DNA from: an uncultured Alistipes sp. | GTDB taxonomy: Bacteria > Bacteroidota > Bacteroidia > Bacteroidales > Rikenellaceae | NCBI GenBank assembly: GCA_944321955.1 | Contig: CALUNG010000014.1 | Location: 1 to 63,366 of the forward strand | DNA length: 63,366 nucleotides | Direction of reading: 5' to 3' | Part shown: positions 13,500-24,903 of the stretch, piece after piece | How positions within the stretch are numbered: position 1 is the stretch's first letter | Layout of the letters: the number at the start of each line of letters is the position of its first letter | Program-made: the position numbers and the translations under genes | Notes under the pieces: generated by a model | What the model saw: the letters and a program-made list of their open reading frames with translations, nothing else | Databases searched by the model: none | Told to the model about the DNA's origin: nothing

Positions 13500-14537
13500 A
13501 TGGAGAAGAAGAATACGATAATATCCATTTCCGAGCGTACGGGATTCTCAGTATCAACGGTTTCGAGAGTACTGAGCGGCAAAGCCGAGGCCGCACGCAT
13601 AAGCAAGGCGACGGTCGAAACCATACAGCAGGAGGCCAAAAGGTGCAATTACAAGCCCAGCCTGCTGGCGAAAGGTTTGCGCACCAACAAAACCAACACC
13701 ATAGGACTCGTTATCCCGAGTATGGAGAACATCTATTTCGCCAATCTTGCAAGTACCATAATACGTGACGCGCGCGCGTACGGGTACACGACCGTCACGG
13801 TCGATACCATGGAAGACGAAAGCAACGAACGCAACGGCATCGACTCGCTGCTTGCACGCAACGTCGACGGCATAATCGTCACCCCCTGCGGGCAGGATCC
13901 GGCATGGCTCGAAAACATCAACCGCAACACCACGCCGGTTGTGCTCATCGACCGCTACTTCAACTCCACGGAACTCCCGTACGTCTGCACCGACAACTAC
14001 CAGGGCGGCTATGAAGCCACGCGTTACCTGCTCAACAACGGACACGAGAACATTCTCTGCATACAGGGCACTCCTTATTCCATGCCCGTACGCGAGCGCG
14101 TACGCGGATATCTCAACGCCCTGCGCGGAAAGGGCCTCGAAGAGCGTGCGCGAATCGTCGGCGACAGCTTCTCCATCCAGAACGGATACCTCGAAACGAA
14201 ACTCGTACTCAACTCCGTTTCGCGCCCCACGGCCATATTTGCACTGAGCAACACCATACTGCTCGGTGCGATCAAGGCAATAAGGGAGTCGGGGCTCTCC
14301 ATTCCGAACGACATCTCCATCATTACGTTCGACAACAACACGTTCCTCGACTTCATCGATCCGCCCGTCACACGCATGAGCCAGCCGGTGAACGAGATAG
14401 GCACCCTCTCGGTAAAGCTGCTCATGCAGAGCATCGACGAGAAGCGCCCCATAGACACCAAACTGCAGCTGCAGCCGCAACTCATCGTCTGCGAATCGGT
14501 GGCCAACGTCCTATTGGAGGCCGAACGGGTCGGATAA
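13500..14537 (+). CDS. LacI/GalR-family transcriptional regulator
   Basis: This 345-aa protein starts at the ATG at 13500; a TTG two codons earlier is unlikely. The N-terminal helix-turn-helix reads ISERTGFSVSTVSRVLSG, with a hinge helix in the YKPSLLAKGLR region, followed by a periplasmic-binding-protein-like effector domain (TIGLVIPSMENIYFANL, then GYEATRYLLNNGHENI). It most likely represses the divergent operon and releases it on binding ribose or a ribose derivative. Bacteroides rus loci are reported to use a different type of regulator, so this would be an alternative control of similar genes. Confidence 0.93.
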   Translation: MEKKNTIISISERTGFSVSTVSRVLSGKAEAARISKATVETIQQEAKRCNYKPSLLAKGLRTNKTNTIGLVIPSMENIYFANLASTIIRDARAYGYTTVTVDTMEDESNERNGIDSLLARNVDGIIVTPCGQDPAWLENINRNTTPVVLIDRYFNSTELPYVCTDNYQGGYEATRYLLNNGHENILCIQGTPYSMPVRERVRGYLNALRGKGLEERARIVGDSFSIQNGYLETKLVLNSVSRPTAIFALSNTILLGAIKAIRESGLSIPNDISIITFDNNTFLDFIDPPVTRMSQPVNEIGTLSVKLLMQSIDEKRPIDTKLQLQPQLIVCESVANVLLEAERVG

Positions 14538-14685: not shown

Positions 14686-14717
14686 GTTGGCATATTCGGG
14701 AATTTTACCTATCTTTG
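14686..14717 (+). promoter_or_regulatory. Promoter of the pyrimidine operon
   Basis: GTTG (14686-14689), exactly 20 bp, then a perfect TATCTTTG (14710-14717). The predicted start is near A14724, about 12 nt before the leader ATG and about 168 nt before pyrC. Confidence 0.75.
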
Positions 14718-14735
14718 CAGTGCAATACGGGGGTT

Positions 14736-14864
14736 ATGGGATACGGATTCATCGACAGTCAGGCCGTTCGGCCGTTCGCAAGCGGACATTACGACTTCTG
14801 CATGGATTTCCATTCCCGCTTCTCCGTTCAAAACGATTGTTTTTTCAATTATCATAAAGGGTAA
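14736..14864 (+). CDS. Putative leader peptide of the pyrimidine operon (42 aa)
   Basis: An ATG preceded by a run of G opens a 42-codon frame ending in TAA at 14862-14864. The peptide is rich in Phe, Tyr, His and Asp and ends CFFNYHKG. The last codons before the stop (14836-14855) are U-rich, 12 of 20 bases. The stop codon lies inside the left arm of the following terminator stem, so a ribosome finishing the peptide would melt that stem. The E. coli pyrBI leader peptide has similar size (44 aa) and placement. No homologue is recognised, and expression is inferred from architecture only. Confidence 0.6.
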   Translation: MGYGFIDSQAVRPFASGHYDFCMDFHSRFSVQNDCFFNYHKG

Positions 14865-14887
14865 CTTGTTTGGTTACCCTTTTTTTT
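14856..14887 (+). terminator. Intrinsic terminator/attenuator in front of pyrC
   Basis: A perfect 10-bp stem (AAAGGGTAAC at 14856-14865 with 14873-14882) and a 7-nt loop lead into eight T (14880-14887), only four bases before the pyrC ATG. Because a promoter lies upstream, the terminator is inside the pyr transcript and can act as an attenuator. Its right arm also covers the region just before the pyrC start, so it could repress translation too. Confidence 0.8.
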
Positions 14888-14891
14888 GTAC

Positions 14892-16184
14892 ATGAACGAA
14901 CTGCTGCTGAAAGGGGCTTCGGTACACACAGCCGAAGGTTGCATTGCCACGGACATTCTCGTGGCCGACGGACGGATCGCCGCCATGGCACCGTCGATCG
15001 AGCCCGGCGAAGGTACATGCGTCTACGACCTGCGGGGCAAACACGTGGTGAGCGGTCTGGTGGACGTGCATGTCCATCTGCGCGAACCCGGTTTCGAATA
15101 CAAGGAGACGATAGCTACCGGTACGGCCGCCGCCGCACACGGGGGATACACGACCGTCTGCCCGATGCCCAACCTCAATCCGGTACCCGATACACCGGAG
15201 CATCTCGACGTGCAGACCGACATCATAGCCCGCACGGCCGCCATCGAGGTCATACCCTACGCTTCAATCACGCGCGGACAGCGCGGATGCGGCGAGCCGG
15301 TCGACTTTGCGGCGCTCGCACCGCGCGTGGCCGGCTTCTCGGACGACGGACGAGGCGTGCAGGACGAGGCGCTGATGGCCGAGGCAATGCGCCGGGCTGC
15401 CGCATGCGGTTCACGCATCGTGGCCCACTGCGAGGTGAACGAACTGCTGCACGGCGGATACATACACGACGGCGACTACTGCCGCCGGCACGGCCATCGC
15501 GGCATCTGCTCGGAGAGCGAATGGCGGCAGGTCGAACGCGACCTGCGTCTGGCCGAGGCTACGGGATGCCGGTATCACGTATGCCACGTCTCGACGCGCG
15601 AGAGCGTCGAGCTGGTAAGGCAGGCAAAGGCACGCGGCGTGAAGGCGAGCTGCGAAACGGCCCCGCACTACCTGCTGCTGTGCGACGACGACCTGCAGGA
15701 GGACGGGCGTTTCAAGATGAACCCGCCGCTGCGCAGCGCCGAAGACCGCGCGGCGCTGATAGAGGGTGTTATGGACGGCACGATCGAGGTCATCGCCACG
15801 GACCACGCACCGCATTCGGCCGAGGAGAAGTCGCGCGGACTCGAAGGCAGCGCCTTCGGCATCCTGGGTCTCGAGACGGCATTCGCACTGATGTACACCA
15901 ATTTCGTCGCTACGGGACGCATGTCGCTGGAACACCTGCTGGAGCTGATGTCGGCCGCACCGCGACGCATATTCGGGCTGGGCGGGGGCATCGCCGTGGG
16001 CGAACGCGCCGATCTGGCCGTATTCGACCTCGACGAGGAGTACGTCATCGACCCCGCGGAGTTCCTCTCGAAGGGGCACAGCACTCCGTTCGAAGGCTGG
16101 CGCGTAAAGGGCAAATGCCTGCTGACCGTCTCGCGCGGAAAAGTGGCTTACGCCGACAGGAAACTTGAAGAACACAAATTCTGA
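14892..16184 (+). CDS. pyrC: Dihydroorotase
   Basis: This 430-aa amidohydrolase cyclizes carbamoyl-aspartate to dihydroorotate. Visible signatures are DVHVHLREPG at 58-67 (metal ligands His60 and His62), GYTTVCPMPN, a TAPHY-like CETAPHYLLL and ATDHAPHS with the catalytic Asp. Length and motifs fit the class I (PyrC/AllB-like) enzymes. The ATG at 14892 is preferred over an upstream TTG. It is the first structural gene of the UMP operon and sits directly behind the attenuator, so it should be the most tightly controlled. Confidence 0.95.
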   Translation: MNELLLKGASVHTAEGCIATDILVADGRIAAMAPSIEPGEGTCVYDLRGKHVVSGLVDVHVHLREPGFEYKETIATGTAAAAHGGYTTVCPMPNLNPVPDTPEHLDVQTDIIARTAAIEVIPYASITRGQRGCGEPVDFAALAPRVAGFSDDGRGVQDEALMAEAMRRAAACGSRIVAHCEVNELLHGGYIHDGDYCRRHGHRGICSESEWRQVERDLRLAEATGCRYHVCHVSTRESVELVRQAKARGVKASCETAPHYLLLCDDDLQEDGRFKMNPPLRSAEDRAALIEGVMDGTIEVIATDHAPHSAEEKSRGLEGSAFGILGLETAFALMYTNFVATGRMSLEHLLELMSAAPRRIFGLGGGIAVGERADLAVFDLDEEYVIDPAEFLSKGHSTPFEGWRVKGKCLLTVSRGKVAYADRKLEEHKF

Positions 16185-16186
16185 AA

Positions 16187-17278
16187 ATGAAACCATACGA
16201 CAAGAAAATCGTACTCGAAAACGGCCGTGAATTCTACGGTTACGGCTTCGGTGCCGACAAGGAGGCTATCTGCGAACTGGTGTTCAACACCTCGATGGTC
16301 GGCTATCAGGAGATTATCTCCGACCCCTCGTACACGGGGCAGATGGTGGTGATGACCTACCCGCTGATAGGCAACTACGGCATCAACAGCGAAGACTTCG
16401 AAACCAAATTCCCGAGTGTCGGCGGCCTCATCGTCCGCGAATACAACGAGGAGCCGAGCAACTTCCGCTGCACGCTCACCCTGGGCGAAGAGATGGAAGA
16501 GGTGAAGATCCCGGGAATCTGGGGCGTCGACACGCGCTGCATAGCTCGCATCATCCGCGACGAGGGGTGCCAGAAGGTGATGCTCACCTCGATCGACACG
16601 CCGCACGAAGAGGCCATGCGCCGCATCCGCGAATTCGAACAGCCGCACGATCTGGTGGCTCAGGTCAGCTGCCGCAAGCGCTGGCTCTCGTGCACGCCCA
16701 ACCACCGTTTCAACGTGGTGGCAGTCGACTGCGGCATCAAGCACAACATCATCCGCTGCCTCAACGCGCTGGGTTGCAACGTCACGGTAGTGCCCTACGA
16801 CACCACGGTCGACGACATACTCAAGCTCCGGCCGAACGGCGTATTCTTCTCGAACGGCCCCGGCGACCCGAAGGACCTGACCAATGTCTCGGAGACGATC
16901 AACGGCCTCAAGGGACGTCTGCCCATATTCGGCGTATGCATGGGTCACCAGCTCATAGCACAGTCCTACGGAGCCCGCATCTACAAGCTCAAGTTCGGAC
17001 ACCGCGGCGGAAACCACCCCGTCAAGAACCTCGAAACGGGCCACATCGAGATCACGAGCCAGAACCACAACTTCGCGGTCGATGCCGATTCGCTGGCCTC
17101 GACGCCGCTGAAGGTTACGCACATAAACCTGCTGGACAATACGGTCGAAGGCGTCGAATGCCGCCGCGACCGCGTCTTCTCGGTACAGTACCACCCCGAA
17201 AGCGCACCCGGTCCGCAGGACAGCACCTATCTGTTCAAGAAATTCATCAACTTAATGGAGGAGCACAAAAATGCCTAA
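16187..17278 (+). CDS. carA: Carbamoyl-phosphate synthase, small (glutaminase) subunit
   Basis: This 363-aa class I glutamine amidotransferase subunit feeds ammonia to CarB. The C-terminal half has the nucleophile in FGVCMGHQL and the His-Glu pair in [10 protein letters not shown]; the N-terminal half has [17 protein letters not shown] and the SFRCT-type carbamoyl synthase small-chain domain. The start is 3 nt after pyrC, and the gene overlaps carB by 8 nt, which implies translational coupling of the two subunits. Confidence 0.97.
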
Positions 17279-20200
17279 GAGACTCGATATAAAGAAAGTA
17301 ATGGTAATCGGCTCGGGCCCGATCGTAATCGGACAGGCGGCCGAATTCGACTATGCCGGAACGCAGGCGTGCCTCGCCCTGCGCGAAGAGGGCTACGAGG
17401 TGATACTCGTGAACTCGAACCCGGCAACCATCATGACCGATACCCACATCGCCGACAAGGTCTACATGGAGCCTCTGACGCTGGAGTATGTCGCCAAGAT
17501 CATCCGCTACGAGCGTCCCGACGCCATCGTGCCGGGTCTGGGCGGACAAACGGGCCTCAACCTTGCCGTACAGCTCGCCAAGAAGGGCATCCTCAAGGAG
17601 TGTCAGGTCGAGATTCTCGGTACATCGTTCGAGAGCATCGAACGCGCCGAGGACCGCGAACTCTTCAAGGAGCTCTGCGAGTCGCTGGGCGAGCCGGTGC
17701 TCCCCTCGGAGATCGCCTGCTCGATAGATGAAGGTCTGGCTGCCGCCGAACGCATAGGATATCCGGTCATACTGCGCCCCGCATTCACGCTGGGAGGTAC
17801 GGGCGGCGGTTTCGCCGACAACGCCGAACAGTGCGCCGAGATACTGCGCAACGCCCTCTCGCTCTCGCCCGCACATCAGGTGCTGGTCGAGAAGAGCATC
17901 AAGGGTTACAAGGAGATCGAATACGAGGTGATCCGCGACAGCAACGACACCGCCATCGCCGTCTGCAACATGGAGAACATCGATCCGGTTGGTGTTCATA
18001 CCGGCGACTCGATAGTCGTTGCCCCGAGCCAGACGCTCTCGAACAAGGAGTATCAGCTGCTGCGCGACAGCGCCCTGAAGATCATCCGCGAACTGAAGAT
18101 CGAGGGAGGCTGCAACGTGCAGTTCGCACTGAACCCACTCTCGTTCGAATACTACCTCATCGAGGTCAATCCGCGCGTATCGCGTTCGTCGGCCCTCGCG
18201 TCGAAGGCCAGCGGCTACCCCATAGCCCGCGTCAGCGCAAAGATCGCCGTGGGTCTTACACTCGACGAGATACGCATAGCCACCACGCCCGCCAGCTTTG
18301 AGCCGACACTCGACTACGTGGTCACCAAGATAGCCCGCTTCCCGTTCGACAAGTTCGCCGACGCCTCGAACCGCCTCGGCACGCAGATGAAGGCCACGGG
18401 TGAGGTGATGAGCGTGGGCCGCACCATCGAGGAGAGCCTGCTCAAGGCCGTACGTTCGCTCGAGACGGGCGTTTGCCACATCTACCACAAGCGTTTCGAC
18501 TCGATGTCGAACGAGGAGATGATGGAGTACATCAAGGAGGGTACCGACGACCGTCTCTACGCCATAGCGCAGCTCATCCGCAACGGCGTGGACCTCACGC
18601 TGATCTACACCAACACCAAGATAGACCTCTTCTTCCTCGAGAAGTTCCGCCACATAGTCGAATTCGAGAAGGTCGTACGCGAACACCCGCTCGACGAGGA
18701 GACGCTGCGCGACGCCAAACGCATGGGATTCAGCGACAAGTACATCGGGCAGCTGTGGGGCCTCAACGAACATGAGATGTACCGTCTGCGCGAGAAGTGG
18801 AACATCTTCCCGGTCTACAAGATGATCGACACGTGCGCCAGCGAGTTCGAATCGTACGTACCGTACTTCTACTCGACATACGAGCTGGAGAACGAATCGG
18901 TGGTCAGCGACCGCGAAAAGATCGTAGTGCTGGGTTCGGGCCCGATACGCATCGGACAGGGCGTCGAGTTCGACTACTCGACCGTACACGCCATCTGGTC
19001 GATCCGCGAAGCAGGATACGAAGCCATCATCATAAACAACAACCCCGAAACCGTCTCGACGGACTACACCACCAGCGACAAACTCTATTTCGAGCCGCTG
19101 ACGGTCGAAGACGTGATGAACGTCATTCGTCTCGAAAAACCCAAGGGCGTAGTTGTCTCGCTCGGCGGACAGACGGCCATCAACCTCGCCGAACCGCTGG
19201 CCGAACTCGGCGTGCCCATCATAGGCACCGGAGTCGAGGCCATACGCAACGCCGAGGACCGAGGCTGTTTCGAGCGCATCATGGAGGAGTTGGGCATACC
19301 GCAGCCGCAGGCCGAGGCCGTAACCACGGTCGAGGACGGAGTGAAGGCCGCGGCTCGCATAGGTTACCCGGTGCTGGTACGTCCGAGCTACGTGCTCGGC
19401 GGACGCGCGATGCAGATCGTCAGCAACGAGGAGACCCTCCGCCACTACATGCACACGGCCGTCGAGGTCAACGAGAACTCGCCCGTGCTGGTGGACAAGT
19501 ACATCATGGGCAAGGAGCTCGAGGTCGACGCCATCTGCGACGGCAAGCAGGTCTACATCCCCGGAATCATGGAGCATGTCGAGAAGACCGGCATACACTC
19601 GGGCGACAGCATCAGCGTCTACCCAACGTTCAGCGTCAGCCAGGCCGTACGCGACAAGATCATCGACTATACGGTGAAGCTGGGTCTGAAGATCGGCGTC
19701 ATCGGCCTCTACAACATACAGTTCATCTGCGACGCCAACGAAGAGGTGTACGTCATCGAGGTCAATCCGCGTTCGTCGCGCACGGTGCCGTTCCTCTCGA
19801 AATCGACGGGCGTCTCGATGGCCGACATCGCCACCCGCGTGATGCTCGGACACTCGCTCGCCGAGCAGGGCATACACGAGGTATATCACCCCGACCGCAA
19901 GCGCTGGTTCGTCAAGGCTCCGGCCTTCTCGTTCTCGAAGATCCGCGGCATGGATTCGTACCTCTCGCCCGAGATGAAGTCGACGGGCGAGGCCATAGGC
20001 TACGACAAGTCGCTCACCCGAGCCCTCTACAAGGCCCTGCAGTCGTCGGGCATGCAGGTATCCAATTACGGAACGGTGCTGATGACCGTGGCTGACAAGG
20101 ACAAACCCGAAGCGCTGAAGATCGCACGCCGCTTCTACAACCTCGGATTCAACATCGAGGCTACATCCGGCACGGCCGACTATCTGCGCAAGCACGGCAT

Positions 20201-20453
20201 ACGCACGCGTCTGCGCCGCAAGCTGAGCGAAGGCAGCAACGACATTATCGAGACGCTGCGCCAGGGCCATGTCAACTACGTGATCAACACCATCGACCTC
20301 GACCAGCACAGCACGCGTCTGGACGGTTACGAGATACGCCGCACGGCCGTCGAGAACAACATCACGATCTTCACGGCACTCGAAACGGTGCGCGTTTTGC
20401 TCGACGTACTCGAGGAGATCACACTCGGAATATCGACCATTGACGCGGAATGA
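17271..20453 (+). CDS. carB: Carbamoyl-phosphate synthase, large subunit
   Basis: This 1060-aa enzyme makes carbamoyl phosphate from bicarbonate, ammonia and 2 ATP. It shows the expected internal duplication of two ATP-grasp halves: [17 protein letters not shown] near the N-terminus is matched by [17 protein letters not shown] at about residue 550. Both have the IEVNPR metal-binding motif, and a C-terminal methylglyoxal-synthase-like allosteric domain begins around 930. UMP or UTP feedback through that domain is known in the family. The stop overlaps the pyrK start in ATGA. Confidence 0.98.
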
Positions 20454-21190
20454 CAATGCAGCGACAGGGCACATATCGCATAGCCGAAAACAGGCCGCTG
20501 ACCGCCTCGGTGTGGCGCATGGTTCTCGAAGGGGATACCGGTGCGCTTACCGCGCCCGGACAGTTCGTGAACATCGCCTTGGAGGGGTGTTACCTGCGGC
20601 GCCCGATATCGGTATGCGACTACGACGAAGGGACGATAACCATAATATACAAGGTGGTCGGACGCGGCACGGCCGTCATGAGCCGCATGCGGGCGGGCGA
20701 GAGCCTCGACCTGCTGACGGGTCTCGGCAACGGGTTCTCGGTCGACAACGGCGCACGGCTCCCGCTGCTCGTCGGCGGCGGAGTGGGCGTGCCGCCGCTC
20801 TACAATCTGGCCCGAAGGTACGTGGCCGCGGGACGCAAAGTGCAGGTCGTATTGGGGTTCAACCGCGCCGACGAGATATTCTACGCCGACGAGTTCCGCT
20901 CGCTGGGTGCGGAGGTACACATCGCAACGGCCGACGGTTCGGTAGGCACGCGGGGATTCGTCACCGACGTACTGCCGGCACTCGAATTCGACTACGTACA
21001 GGCCTGCGGACCGCTGCCGATGCTGCGGGCCCTTTGCGAAGCGACATCATGCAGCGGCGAATACAGCTTCGAGGAGCGCATGGGATGCGGTTTCGGTGCC
21101 TGCATGGGCTGCTCGTGCAAGACCAGATACGGCAACAAGCGAATATGCAAGGAGGGCCCCGTTCTCAAAAAGGAGGAGATAATATGGTAA
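20450..21190 (+). CDS. pyrK: Dihydroorotate dehydrogenase electron-transfer subunit
   Basis: This 246-aa ferredoxin-reductase-like protein has an FAD-binding RRPISV (51-56), an NAD-binding [13 protein letters not shown] (109-121) and a [2Fe-2S] cluster site with Cys213, Cys218, Cys221 and Cys233 in the [11 protein letters not shown] and RICKEGP motifs. It partners PyrD to pass electrons from dihydroorotate to NAD. It starts in the carB stop and overlaps pyrD by 7 nt. Confidence 0.95.
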
Positions 21191-22095
21191 ACACTTCGGT
21201 CATACTCAGCGGTCTGAAGCTGGACAACCCGGTGATTCCGGCCAGCGGCACGTTCGGATTCGGGCGTGAATTCAGCGAATACTACGACCTGGACATACTC
21301 GGCTCGTTCTCGTTCAAGGGCACCACGCGCGAACCGCGCTTCGGCAACCCCACGCCGCGCATCGCCGAATGCACGTCGGGTCTCATCAACTCCGTTGGCC
21401 TGCAGAACCCCGGCATCGACGCCGTGATAGGCGAGGAGCTGCCCCGGATGAAGGAGTACTTCCACAAACCGGTCATCGCCAACATCAGCGGCTTCTCGAT
21501 AGACGAGTACCGCTACTGCTGCGAACGCATCGACGCTCAGGAGCAGGTGGGCCTCATCGAGGTCAACGTCAGCTGCCCCAACGTGCGGCACGGAGGCATG
21601 AGCTTCGGCACCTCGCCCGAAAGCGCCGCCGAAGTGACGCGCGCCGTCAAGGAGGTGACCACAAAGCCCGTGTACATCAAGCTGAGCCCCAACGTGACGG
21701 ACATCGTGGCCATAGCCCGCGCCTGCGAAGAGGCCGGCGCCGACGGCCTCTGTCTGATAAACACGCTGCTGGGCATGCGCATAGATACCATGCGACGCCG
21801 TGCGGTCATAGCCAACACGATGGGCGGATTTTCGGGTCCGGCCGTCTTCCCTGTGGCCGTGAGGATGGTATACCAGGTATCGAAGGCATGCTCGATACCG
21901 GTCATCGGCTGCGGAGGCGTCGATTCGGCCGCCGCCGTAATAGAGATGATGATGGCCGGAGCCACGGCCGTCGAGGTGGGATCGGCCAATCTGGTAAACC
22001 CCTGTGCATGCAAAGAGATAATCGAGGCGCTGCCGGCCGAAATGGAACGCCTCGGAATTGAAAGACTGAGCGACATAATTGGAATAGTGAAATGA
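21184..22095 (+). CDS. pyrD: Dihydroorotate dehydrogenase, class 1B catalytic subunit
   Basis: The start at 21184 gives 303 aa, normal for class 1B. FMN-barrel signatures are [27 protein letters not shown] with the catalytic Cys that marks class 1, and IPVIGCGGV. It oxidizes dihydroorotate to orotate with PyrK as electron outlet. The frame is open for another 740 nt upstream, but that stretch is pyrK in another frame. It overlaps pyrF by 4 nt. Confidence 0.96.
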
Positions 22096-22805
22096 CGAAC
22101 AAGGACGTAATCATCGCTTGCGACTTCGCAAGCGCCGGGCAGACGCTCGCGTTTCTGGACCTCTTCAAGGAGGAGAAGCCTTTCGTGAAGATAGGCATGG
22201 AGCTGTTTTACGCCGAGGGAGCGCCCATCGTGCGCGAAATAAAGCGCCGCGGCCACAAGATCTTCCTCGACCTCAAGCTGCACGACATTCCCAATACCGT
22301 AAAGAAGGCGATGGCCGTACTCTCGCGTCTGGACGTGGACATGTGCAACGTCCACGCTGCCGGCACCATCGAGATGATGCGCTACGCACTCGAGGGACTG
22401 ACGCGTCCCGACGGCACGCGCCCGCTGCTGATAGCCGTCACGCAGCTCACCTCCACCAGCGAGGAGCGCATGCGCAACGAGCTGCTCATCGACGCCTCGA
22501 TCAACGACTGCATCGTCAAGTATGCCCGCAATACGCTCGAGGCGGGTCTCGACGGCGTGGTTTGCTCGCCGCTCGAAGCCCGCATGGTCAAGGATGCCTG
22601 CGGCGAAGGTTTCCTGACGGTGACGCCCGGCGTACGCTTTGCCGACGGCGACAAGGCCGATCAGGTGAGGGTAACCACTCCCGCCCGCGCACGCGAAATC
22701 GGGTCGGACTACATCGTCGTAGGACGCCCCATCACGGCATCGAACGATCCGGTGGCCGCATACCGCCGCTGCGTGGCCGGGTTTCTGGGTACGGACAAAC
22801 GATAG
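22092..22805 (+). CDS. pyrF: Orotidine 5'-phosphate decarboxylase
   Basis: This 237-aa TIM-barrel enzyme makes UMP from OMP. The hallmark Lys-Asp-Lys-Asp array is visible as IIACDFAS near the N-terminus, FVKIGMELF and [11 protein letters not shown], and the phosphate-binding end reads IVVGRPIT. The start overlaps the pyrD stop in ATGA. Length and motifs fit the bacterial type I form. Confidence 0.97.
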
Positions 22806-22818
22806 CTCAACGGCAGCC

Positions 22819-23076
22819 ATGAAACCCGTAAAGTTATTCTATCTGCGCAACTGCCCCTTCTGCCGCAAGGCGATGCAGTATATCGACGAGGCACGGCAGC
22901 GCTGTCCCGAACTGCGCGACATCGAGATCGAGATGATCGAGGAGTCGGAACACCCCGAGATAGCCGACCGCTACGACTACTACTACGTGCCGACGTTCTA
23001 TGTCGACGGAGTGAAGGTGCATGAAGGCGGAATCTACCCCGACGAAGTCGAGGCCGTACTGCGCAAGGCCCTCTGA
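22819..23076 (+). CDS. Small glutaredoxin/thioredoxin-fold protein
   Basis: This 85-aa protein has the redox motif CPFC at residues 12-15 (LRNCPFCRK) and a cis-proline segment YYVPTFYVDG, the two anchors of the thioredoxin fold. It lies 13 nt after pyrF and 38 nt before pyrE on the same strand, inside the operon. No pyrimidine enzyme of this kind is known to me. Possible roles are reduction of the iron-sulfur or cysteine-containing PyrK/PyrD/PyrB proteins, or an unrelated passenger. The partner is unknown. Confidence 0.85.
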   Translation: MKPVKLFYLRNCPFCRKAMQYIDEARQRCPELRDIEIEMIEESEHPEIADRYDYYYVPTFYVDGVKVHEGGIYPDEVEAVLRKAL

Positions 23077-23114
23077 GGCCGCATGAAGGCGACACGAAAA
23101 ACAAACGACATACC

Positions 23115-23747
23115 ATGAAAAGACTCATAGCCAAAGATCTGCTCTCGATACGCGCCGTATTCCTGCGTCCCGAGCAGCCGTTCACCTGGGCGAGCGGAAT
23201 CAAAAGCCCCATATACTGCGACAACCGTCTGACGCTGTCGGACGTGAAGGTCCGCAACGACGTCGAGAACGGCCTTGCCGAGACCGTACGCAAGAACTAT
23301 CCCGAATGCGAGGTGCTGATGGGCACGAGCACCGCCGGCATAGCCCACGCCGCAATCACGGCGACGATTCTGGGTCTGCCGATGGGTTACGTGCGCAGCG
23401 GCGCCAAGGACCACGGACGCGCAAACCGCATCGAGGGACGCCTCGAACCCGGACAGAAGGTCGTGGTCATCGAAGACCTCATCTCGACGGGCGGCAGCTG
23501 CATCGACACTGTCGAGGCCCTGCGCGAGGCCGGCGCCGAAGTGCTGGGCGTGGCGAGCATCTTCACCTACGGCATGAAACGCGGACTGGAGCGTCTGGCC
23601 GAGGCACACGTACGCAACGTCTCGCTCTCGGATCTGGATACGCTGGTGGAGGTTGCGGCCGAAGAGGGATACATCAAACCCGAAGACAAGGCACGGCTTC
23701 TGGCATTCCGCGACAACCCCTCGGACGAGAGCTGGATAAAGGGTTGA
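23115..23747 (+). CDS. pyrE: Orotate phosphoribosyltransferase
   Basis: This 210-aa type I phosphoribosyltransferase joins orotate and PRPP to give OMP. The PRPP loop is [13 protein letters not shown]; the N-terminal [16 protein letters not shown] and [11 protein letters not shown] match the family. It follows the glutaredoxin-like gene and precedes pyrB by about 75 nt. Confidence 0.97.
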
Positions 23748-23820
23748 GACGCCTGTACTCAACACCCCACGACCACAAGCAGGCAACAAATTGACAGACC
23801 ACACCAAAAACCGAAACGTC

Positions 23821-24903
23821 ATGAAACACCTCATCGACACCACCGACCTCTCGGTCAGTGAAATAAACGAGATTATAGACCTCGCTCTCGACATCATCGC
23901 CCACCGCGAAAAATACCGCGACGTCTGCCGCGGACGCAAGCTCGCAACGCTCTTCTACGAGCCCAGCACCCGCACGCGTCTGAGTTTCACGTCGGCCATG
24001 ATGGAGCTCGGAGGCAACGTCATAGGCTTCTCCGATGCCGCCTCGTCGTCGGTATCGAAGGGCGAGACCGTAGCCGACACCGTACGCGTGATCAGCTGCT
24101 TCGCCGACATCATAGCCATGCGTCACTTCAAGGAGGGCGCTCCGCTGGTGGCTTCGCAGTACGCCTCGATACCGGTGATCAACGCCGGTGACGGCAGCCA
24201 CGCCCACCCCACGCAGACCCTGACCGACCTGCTCACCATACGCCGCGAGCTGGGTCGCCTCGACAACTTCACGATAGGTTTCTGCGGCGACCTGAAGTTT
24301 GGCCGTACGGTACACTCGCTCATCAAGGCCCTGTCGCGGTATACGGGCATCAAGGTGGTGCTCATTGCCCCCGAGGAGCTGCAGCTGCCGTCGTATCTGC
24401 GCGAAGAGGTGTGCGACCGCAACGGAATACCCACCCGCGAAGTCAGAACGATGGAGGAGGTGATGCCCGAACTCGACATACTCTACATGACACGCGTACA
24501 GAAGGAACGCTTCCTCGACGAAGAGGAGTTCGAGCGTCTGCGCGACAGCTTCATCCTCACGCCCGAAAAGCTGGCAACGGCCAAGAAGGAGATGATCATA
24601 CTCCACCCGCTGCCGCGCGTAAACGAAATCGTGCGCGCCGTGGACAACGATCCCCGTGCCGCCTACTTCCGTCAGGTCGAGAACGGCAAGTTCGTGCGAA
24701 TGGCCCTTATCTGCAAACTGCTCGAATGGTCGCCCGAACGCCCGACAAGCCCGACACCGCGTCTGGCCGGCGACTACATCGTCAACGAATACCACTGCTC
24801 GAACCGCAACTGCATTTCGGCCACCGAAGATGTCGACACGCTCTTCCGCCGTGCCGAGGACGGAACGTACCGTTGCGCCTACTGTGAGGCAAAAGCACGC
24901 TGA
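23821..24903 (+). CDS. pyrB: Aspartate carbamoyltransferase with fused PyrI-type zinc domain
   Basis: The ATG at 23821 ([10 protein letters not shown]) gives 360 aa; an upstream TTG is disfavoured. Residues 1-303 are a complete catalytic chain: STRTR (49-53) binds carbamoyl phosphate, HPTQ is at 129-132 and HPLPRV at 262-267. The last 45-50 residues carry Cys326 and Cys331 (CSNRNC) and Cys352 and Cys355 (CAYC), followed by Glu. This matches the zinc-binding C-terminal domain of the regulatory chain PyrI (CPNSNC and CKYC in E. coli). The nucleotide-binding allosteric domain of PyrI is absent. Full PyrB-PyrI fusions are known in Thermotoga; this short form is unusual. It is the last gene of the operon. 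Confidence 0.93.

Follow-up and report, generated by a model that had tools for sequence, protein, structure and literature searches.

The locus analysed here raises the question of how the UMP operon of an uncultured Alistipes is controlled, and whether the short leader in front of pyrC is a counterpart of the attenuator of pyrBI, the textbook case of such control, which comes from enterobacteria. The window, that is, the whole stretch of 63,366 nucleotides that was analysed, is contig C14 of a source genome of 2.06 Mb that is 92% complete. A profile search against curated cut-offs has identified a nine-gene UMP operon on its plus strand at 14892–24903, in the order pyrC–carA–carB–pyrK–pyrD–pyrF–glutaredoxin-like–pyrE–pyrB (Table 1). 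All nine ORFs that a first-pass annotation of this DNA had assigned to the operon are thus recognised, those of pyrK and the glutaredoxin-like protein by matches under the curated cut-offs. The same annotation proposed that the operon is preceded by a leader-peptide attenuator that senses UTP in the manner of pyrBI.

Table 1. Leader elements and genes of the UMP operon in the window.
Feature	Position	Strand	Basis
Bacteroidales-type promoter, TTGGCA (14687–14692) and TATCTTTG (14711–14718)	14687–14718	+	sequence, sigma-70 scan
Predicted start of transcription (about 14723/14724) with a brief untranslated segment	14723–14735	+	–12 to –5 rule
Leader ORF, 42 codons and TAA (ATG 14736, TAA 14862–14864)	14736–14864	+	ORF reading; counterparts in relatives; coding signal
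U-rich stretch, proposed UTP-dependent pause region	14837–14855	+	base count, genus-wide enrichment
Intrinsic terminator (putative attenuator), 11-pair stem, 5-nt loop TGTTT, T8	14856–14887	+	fold, compensatory changes in relatives
pyrC (dihydroorotase), leading gene of the operon	14892–16184	+	TIGR00857, 400 bits, cut-off 279
carA	16187–17278	+	TIGR01368
carB	17271–20453	+	NF003671
pyrK	20450–21190	+	NF000799, under curated cut-off
pyrD	21187–22095	+	NF005574
pyrF	22092–22805	+	NF001273
Glutaredoxin/thioredoxin-like small protein	22819–23076	+	weak matches, under cut-offs
pyrE	23115–23747	+	TIGR00336
pyrB with the C-terminal PyrI metal-binding domain only	23791–24903	+	PF02729, PF00185, PF02748 (residues 331–368)

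The leader is about 165 nt long. Its promoter is located where the first-pass annotation had placed it but falls short of the perfect one that had been claimed: TTGGCA is a good match, and the sigma-70 scan scores it 9/12. In a flavobacterium, TAnnTTTG serves as the sigma-A box and occupies –12 to –5 (excerpt of PMC9723704). The leader ORF had been read correctly as 42 codons, and so had the U-rich run at its 3' end, in which T accounts for 12 of the 20 bases at 14836–14855 when counted by eye. The hairpin had been described as a perfect 10-bp stem followed by eight T; the eight T are present, but the stem consists of 11 pairs, 10 of them Watson–Crick and one G–U. The stem-loop itself covers 14856–14882 and the T run 14880–14887. 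The stop codon of the leader ORF falls within the left arm of the hairpin, at +6 from the start of the stem, and the ATG of pyrC lies four bases past T8, both as previously noted. The leader RNA has a predicted fold with a z score of –3.3, and 0/200 shuffled sequences are equally stable. Searching Rfam with the 3 kb that surround the leader gave no family near its gathering score; the best match, DapZ, reached 19.5 bits against a gathering score of 56 (E 3.7) and was discarded.

To what extent this anatomy is shared can be seen from the genus. A PyrC relative at E 1e-100 or better is present in 85 of the 91 searched genomes, the window included, and for each of the 84 relatives the DNA upstream was fetched. 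One upstream region, in G008 (L131), stops at a contig edge and was dropped everywhere, leaving 84 readable upstreams (83 relatives and the window). The promoter word, a short ORF and a terminator are found together in 84/84 of these, 82 by the automatic detector and two on inspection (L084 and L129, read by hand later and kept outside the automatic counts), whereas the detector is positive in 0/129 controls. The controls are long ORFs from elsewhere in the window and the fetched loci, chosen mechanically at 150 codons or more, so that some of them are not genes, with three pyrC targets in truncated loci removed from an initial 132. TAnnTTTG occurs 85–200 nt upstream of the stem in 82/82 upstreams with a detected terminator, and TTG lies 20–27 nt upstream of TAnnTTTG in 68/82; for at least one locus (L126) the automatic choice settled on an incorrect TAnnTTTG, an error that touches the start distances and not the ORF–hairpin counts. 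The terminator hairpin shows compensatory changes among relatives, and in two aligned clades (19 and 18 leaders, L103 being omitted from one of the alignments) it is the sole shared predicted structure. Upstream of the U-tract, the predicted structures are not alike between the two clades and compensatory changes are few. The arrangement is real and deeply conserved, and its anatomy makes it very likely that leader ORF and intrinsic terminator form an attenuator.

The evidence on the leader ORF gathered here concerns where it stops and how its codons change. The 80 scored leaders, from which two whose ORF passes the hairpin are excluded (L147 and L155), have ORFs of 23–49 codons with a median of 35. 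Counted from the base at which the stem begins, the stop codon lies between –11 and +12 nt in 80/82 leaders, the two ORFs running through the hairpin stop at +30 and +33, and the hand-read pair stops at –9 and +14. The spacer between stop codon and stem is 8 nt or less in all 80, and the stop codon is TAA in 47, TGA in 19 and TAG in 14. The ORF starting at the first ATG has its end no more than 20 nt from the stem in 66/82 upstreams, whereas 9.6 are expected from dinucleotide shuffles, and the remaining two frames contain such an ORF in 5/160 cases. In one clade, the word TTAGGGTAA gives stops in two frames, and small changes in the length of the U-tract move the ORF between frames, yet termination stays at the hairpin, suggesting that the position of the stop is conserved rather than the end of the peptide.

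The peptide itself shows some constraint. Related leaders were compared in 24 disjoint pairs, and codons that differ by one change have a synonymous to non-synonymous ratio of 59:87 in the leader frame (59/146), compared with 29:109 and 32:106 when the frame is shifted (29/138 and 32/138; p 0.0005 and 0.002), which indicates moderate amino-acid selection on the predicted leader peptides. An alignment across relatives had been proposed as a check on the first-pass annotation; within the genus, it finds the leader ORF, the U-rich stretch and the hairpin conserved, with synonymous changes in excess in the leader frame. Gln and Asn make up 6.8% and 7.2% of the leader peptides, compared with 0.9% and 2.7% of the first part of pyrC, and at least one Gln is present in 77/80. 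Inspection by eye found no single-residue run common to the 80 peptides. As a separate observation, also by eye, an Asn-Ile-Ser/Pro-Pro-like word recurs in many peptides near codons 6–9, lying in several clades at comparable distances from the start codon, the RNA there being close to ACATA(T)C.

The U-rich stretch is a property of the genus as well. In the 30 nt that precede the stem, the frequency of U is 0.48, compared with 0.25 elsewhere in the leader, and all 80 genus leaders are enriched; the corresponding values are 0.47 and 0.26 in the window, and 0.50 and 0.22 in the sister genus g79, where 18/18 leaders are enriched. A drops from 0.29 to 0.22 in the same 30 nt of the 80 leaders. The last ten codons contain 1072 U, compared with the 812 that the genus codon usage in the first part of pyrC would give for these amino acids. 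Since the codons preceding the last ten also have a smaller U excess (1491 versus 1341), this codon-usage yardstick is imperfect. TGTTT is found ahead of the stem in 63/80 leaders versus 15.9 expected, and it occurs in all three frames (47, 11 and 5). In 13/80 leaders, the last 35 nt ahead of the stem contain no U4 run, the leader of G079 has little U ahead of the stem, and the U content of the last 30 nt drops as GC rises (r –0.40). The leader RNA ahead of the stem is somewhat more structured than shuffled sequences, with a mean z of –1.5 and values under –2 in 22/80. A search for an antiterminator by the energy of a duplex with the left arm placed only 6/80 leaders under the 5th percentile, and it gives no signal for the E. 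coli amino-acid leaders either.

For comparison, seven E. coli leaders were fetched and six were scored in the same way, thrL being left unscored because the scan missed its terminator. The stop codon of pyrL lies at +44, and U is 0.40 in the 30 nt before its stem and 0.28 elsewhere. The stops of trpL, hisL, leuL, ilvL and pheL lie at –45, –68, –21, –23 and –46, respectively, with U at 0.13–0.20 over the last 30 nt ahead of the stem. Judged by where its ORF stops and how much U it contains, the leader of the window resembles pyrL rather than the amino-acid leaders. It shares with pyrBI a short leader ORF reaching the hairpin (44 codons in pyrL, 42 here) and a U-rich stretch followed by an intrinsic terminator that immediately precedes a UMP gene. 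The two differ in that the pyrL ORF runs through the hairpin, whereas the ORF here usually ends on reaching the left arm or within it, and U before the stem is 0.47 here versus 0.40 in pyrL. Furthermore, pyrB–pyrI follows the E. coli attenuator, whereas pyrC is the first of nine genes here and is preceded by a Bacteroidales promoter, and the aspartate transcarbamoylase encoded here has only the metal-binding part of PyrI. The amino-acid leaders of E. coli likewise have a translated leader ahead of a terminator, where a predicted ORF is found here, but their ORFs end 21–68 nt before the stem and the preceding 30 nt are U-poor.

These features lead to the reading that we consider probable, namely a ribosome-controlled terminator for which UTP-dependent pausing provides the readout, as in pyrBI. 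The leader would act as a transcription attenuator driven by coupled translation, with a ribosome loading right behind RNA polymerase, and the distance between the two would be set by the U-rich stretch ahead of the hairpin. When UTP is scarce, the polymerase would pause in the U-rich stretch, allowing the ribosome to catch up and to occupy the stop codon within or next to the left arm, so that no hairpin would form and the pyr operon would be read. When UTP is plentiful, the polymerase would run on far ahead of the ribosome, the hairpin would form, and transcription would end at T8 upstream of pyrC. From the anatomy, control of the operon through translation of the leader is very likely. A genus-wide leader ORF that ends at a terminator before UMP genes suggests that a shortage of UTP may be sensed much as in E. 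coli, and the U content, the content of the operon and the pyrBI precedent point to UTP as the probable signal.

Published work on E. coli bears on the individual steps of this model. In E. coli, repression of a terminator is nearly complete a few bp past a stop codon, and full strength is regained beyond about 30 bp (excerpt of PMC4824070), from which we infer that a ribosome at a stop placed as in these leaders would block the terminator. The dependence is described as steeper for pyrBI because pause sites set the pace (excerpt of PMC4824070), and prevention of the pyrL terminator is described as needing tight coupling (excerpt of PMC5021804). Coupling of ribosome and polymerase in Bacteroidota is an assumption of the model, and a search of the open-access literature found no paper testing it in this phylum. 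The peptide constraint, the richness in Gln and Asn and the extra leader RNA structure are not required by the pyrBI model. Since a stalled ribosome would let the terminator form, it may be speculated that the Gln and Asn codons could tie the operon to charged Gln and Asn tRNAs.

Reiterative initiation at the start of the transcript might act as a second UTP sensor. AATT and TTT are found 3–13 nt past the promoter box in 27/82 and 17/82 genus leaders, respectively, and not in the window, a count made on the pyrC promoters alone. The predicted transcripts of a low-GC clade and of part of g79 begin near AAUUU, similar to the start of the E. coli pyrBI transcript. UTP-dependent reiterative initiation has been described for pyrBI, codBA, upp and carAB (excerpt of PMC6245113).

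An identical anatomy would be expected if the ribosome-coupled terminator sensed general translation capacity and not UTP; the operon would then be read as long as translation kept up, lagging ribosomes, during poor growth or amino-acid shortage, would shut it, and the U-rich stretch would merely be a synchronising pause. The leaders lacking a U4 run and the U-poor leader of G079 are consistent with such a sensor, and the constrained peptide and its Gln/Asn enrichment would suit sensing of charged tRNAs. However, the U excess in the last ten codons goes beyond the need of the amino acids, the enrichment extends to every scored leader, the genes downstream form the full UMP pathway, and PyrR, the other regulator tested, is not found over its cut-off, so that we regard sensing of general translation as unlikely. 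The constrained, Gln/Asn-enriched peptide would also fit classical amino-acid attenuation, in which the ribosome stalls at Gln, Asn, Trp or Arg codons and an antiterminator forms, and the antiterminator test has little power. Arguments against it are the position of the stop codons, which is at the hairpin or within it, the U-rich stretch, which the scored amino-acid leaders lack, and the absence of a common residue run from the peptides; this explanation is quite improbable.

An attenuator operated by a protein, either PyrR or another RNA-binding regulator, has to be considered because PyrR attenuators are common in Firmicutes and many of the PyrC relatives kept (80 of 583) carry Firmicutes labels. 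The Bacillus-type PyrR attenuators also place a long pyr operon under terminator control, but here the leader ORF ends at the terminator and no PyrR passes the cut-off. Weak matches to the PyrR model do occur in 46/61 genus genomes; none of them scores above 33 bits, where the cut-off is 138, and 0/61 pass, whereas the model passes in 6/14 control genomes. The weak matches are presumably other phosphoribosyltransferases. Together with the terminator being the only predicted structure shared within the aligned clades, these data make a protein-operated attenuator very improbable. That the hairpin simply ends transcription of the upstream gene and is preceded by a chance ORF could be suggested by a LacI-type regulator gene that lies upstream on the same strand as pyrC and ends at 14537; since a promoter word intervenes and the whole set is kept in 84/84 upstreams and in none of the controls, this explanation is hardly conceivable.

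The allosteric control of the pathway appears to have changed as well. The PyrI allosteric domain is present in only 1/61 genus genomes (G018), which has no match to the window pyrC even at E 1e-60, and it is likewise absent from G037, G043 and G052, which have no window-type pyrC at E 1e-100. This suggests that feedback through PyrI has probably been lost in the genus, the genomes being incomplete, in which case more of the control would rest on transcription.

The window PyrC itself has an unusual distribution. It has about 55–60% identity to relatives in loci labelled as Clostridia or other Firmicutes (80 kept of 583), has matches at E 1e-60 in only 2/22 genera of its own family, and at E 1e-100 has no match outside the genus among the searched genomes. 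The UMP operon is perhaps a transferred operon.

The arrangement reaches beyond the genus. In the sister genus g79, the detector finds it in 18/23 upstreams, and four of the remaining five have, on inspection, a hairpin-like repeat and a T run ahead of pyrC. Among the 80 PyrC-relative loci kept of 583, which mostly carry Firmicutes labels, eight are positive, and the depositors' labels of these are Alistipes for five, Paludibacteraceae for L011, Bacteroidales for L019 and Muribaculaceae for L048. The detector is negative in ten loci with Bacteroidales-type labels (L008, L023, L025, L027, L037, L046, L051, L053, L055 and L072). Inspection of detector-negative loci, kept outside the counts, found a similar arrangement in L010, L035 and L198 and no clear arrangement in L197, L203 and L215. 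Different long leaders with repeats were seen by eye before pyrC in the Firmicutes-labelled loci L042, L043 and L049. In other Bacteroidales families, 9/111 upstreams of pyrB are positive compared with 0/129 controls (p 0.0008); these nine are counted unfiltered and include weak cases with a 12-codon ORF, a 20-codon ORF 167 nt before pyrB and a 21-codon ORF. The remaining 102 pyrB upstreams comprise 37 with a terminator only, 3 with promoter and terminator and 62 with neither. U enrichment is found in 6/9 of the pyrB leaders, which is not significant (p 0.08). The arrangement is present in several families, before pyrC or pyrB, and is far from universal.

The first-pass annotation had known of no description of such a leader in Bacteroidetes, and our search of the open-access literature agrees, having found no pyrimidine leader reported in Bacteroidota. 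Leader ORFs with proposed attenuation have been put forward within the phylum: clues to leader peptides ahead of amino-acid operons in F. psychrophilum (excerpt of PMC9723704) and sORFs within long 5' UTRs in B. thetaiotaomicron (excerpt of PMC7366714). They differ from the present leader in that the leader-peptide passages in the excerpts of these two papers contain no pyrimidine genes, PyrE appearing just in the promoter table of PMC9723704. Most likely, the attenuator of this genus represents a UTP-responsive mechanism like that of pyrBI in a phylum for which the open-access literature yielded no such description, and an origin independent of the enterobacterial attenuator is plausible. If so, a conserved counterpart of pyrBI in another phylum would make the mechanism a general one, and more than 80 natural variants of the attenuator would be available to learn from. 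Close ribosome–polymerase coupling would then be needed in Bacteroidota, a phylum that for the most part initiates translation without Shine–Dalgarno sequences, and the question would become one that reporters can address. A joint reading goes further: a widespread UTP attenuator of the Bacteroidales' own, placed before the leading pyr gene (pyrC in two genera, pyrB in some families) and evolved apart from the enterobacterial one, may have two inputs, UTP through pausing and amide nitrogen through Gln/Asn codons, and may replace the lost PyrI feedback. We regard this combination as doubtful.

Some individual leaders depart from the common layout. The leader of G002, read on inspection, has 34 codons, a stop codon 9 nt before the stem and a start codon about 90 nt behind the promoter word. 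About 860 bp, including repeated sequence, separate the attenuator of G002 from pyrC (L003, about 1640–2500). In G079, which has a genome of 1.3 Mb, the leader is 20 codons long, stops in the hairpin and starts nearly at the predicted transcript start. In the low-GC clade (alignment A1, columns 27–33 with 95–101), the start codon of the leader is predicted to pair over a long range with a CGACGUUU stretch, with some compensatory changes.
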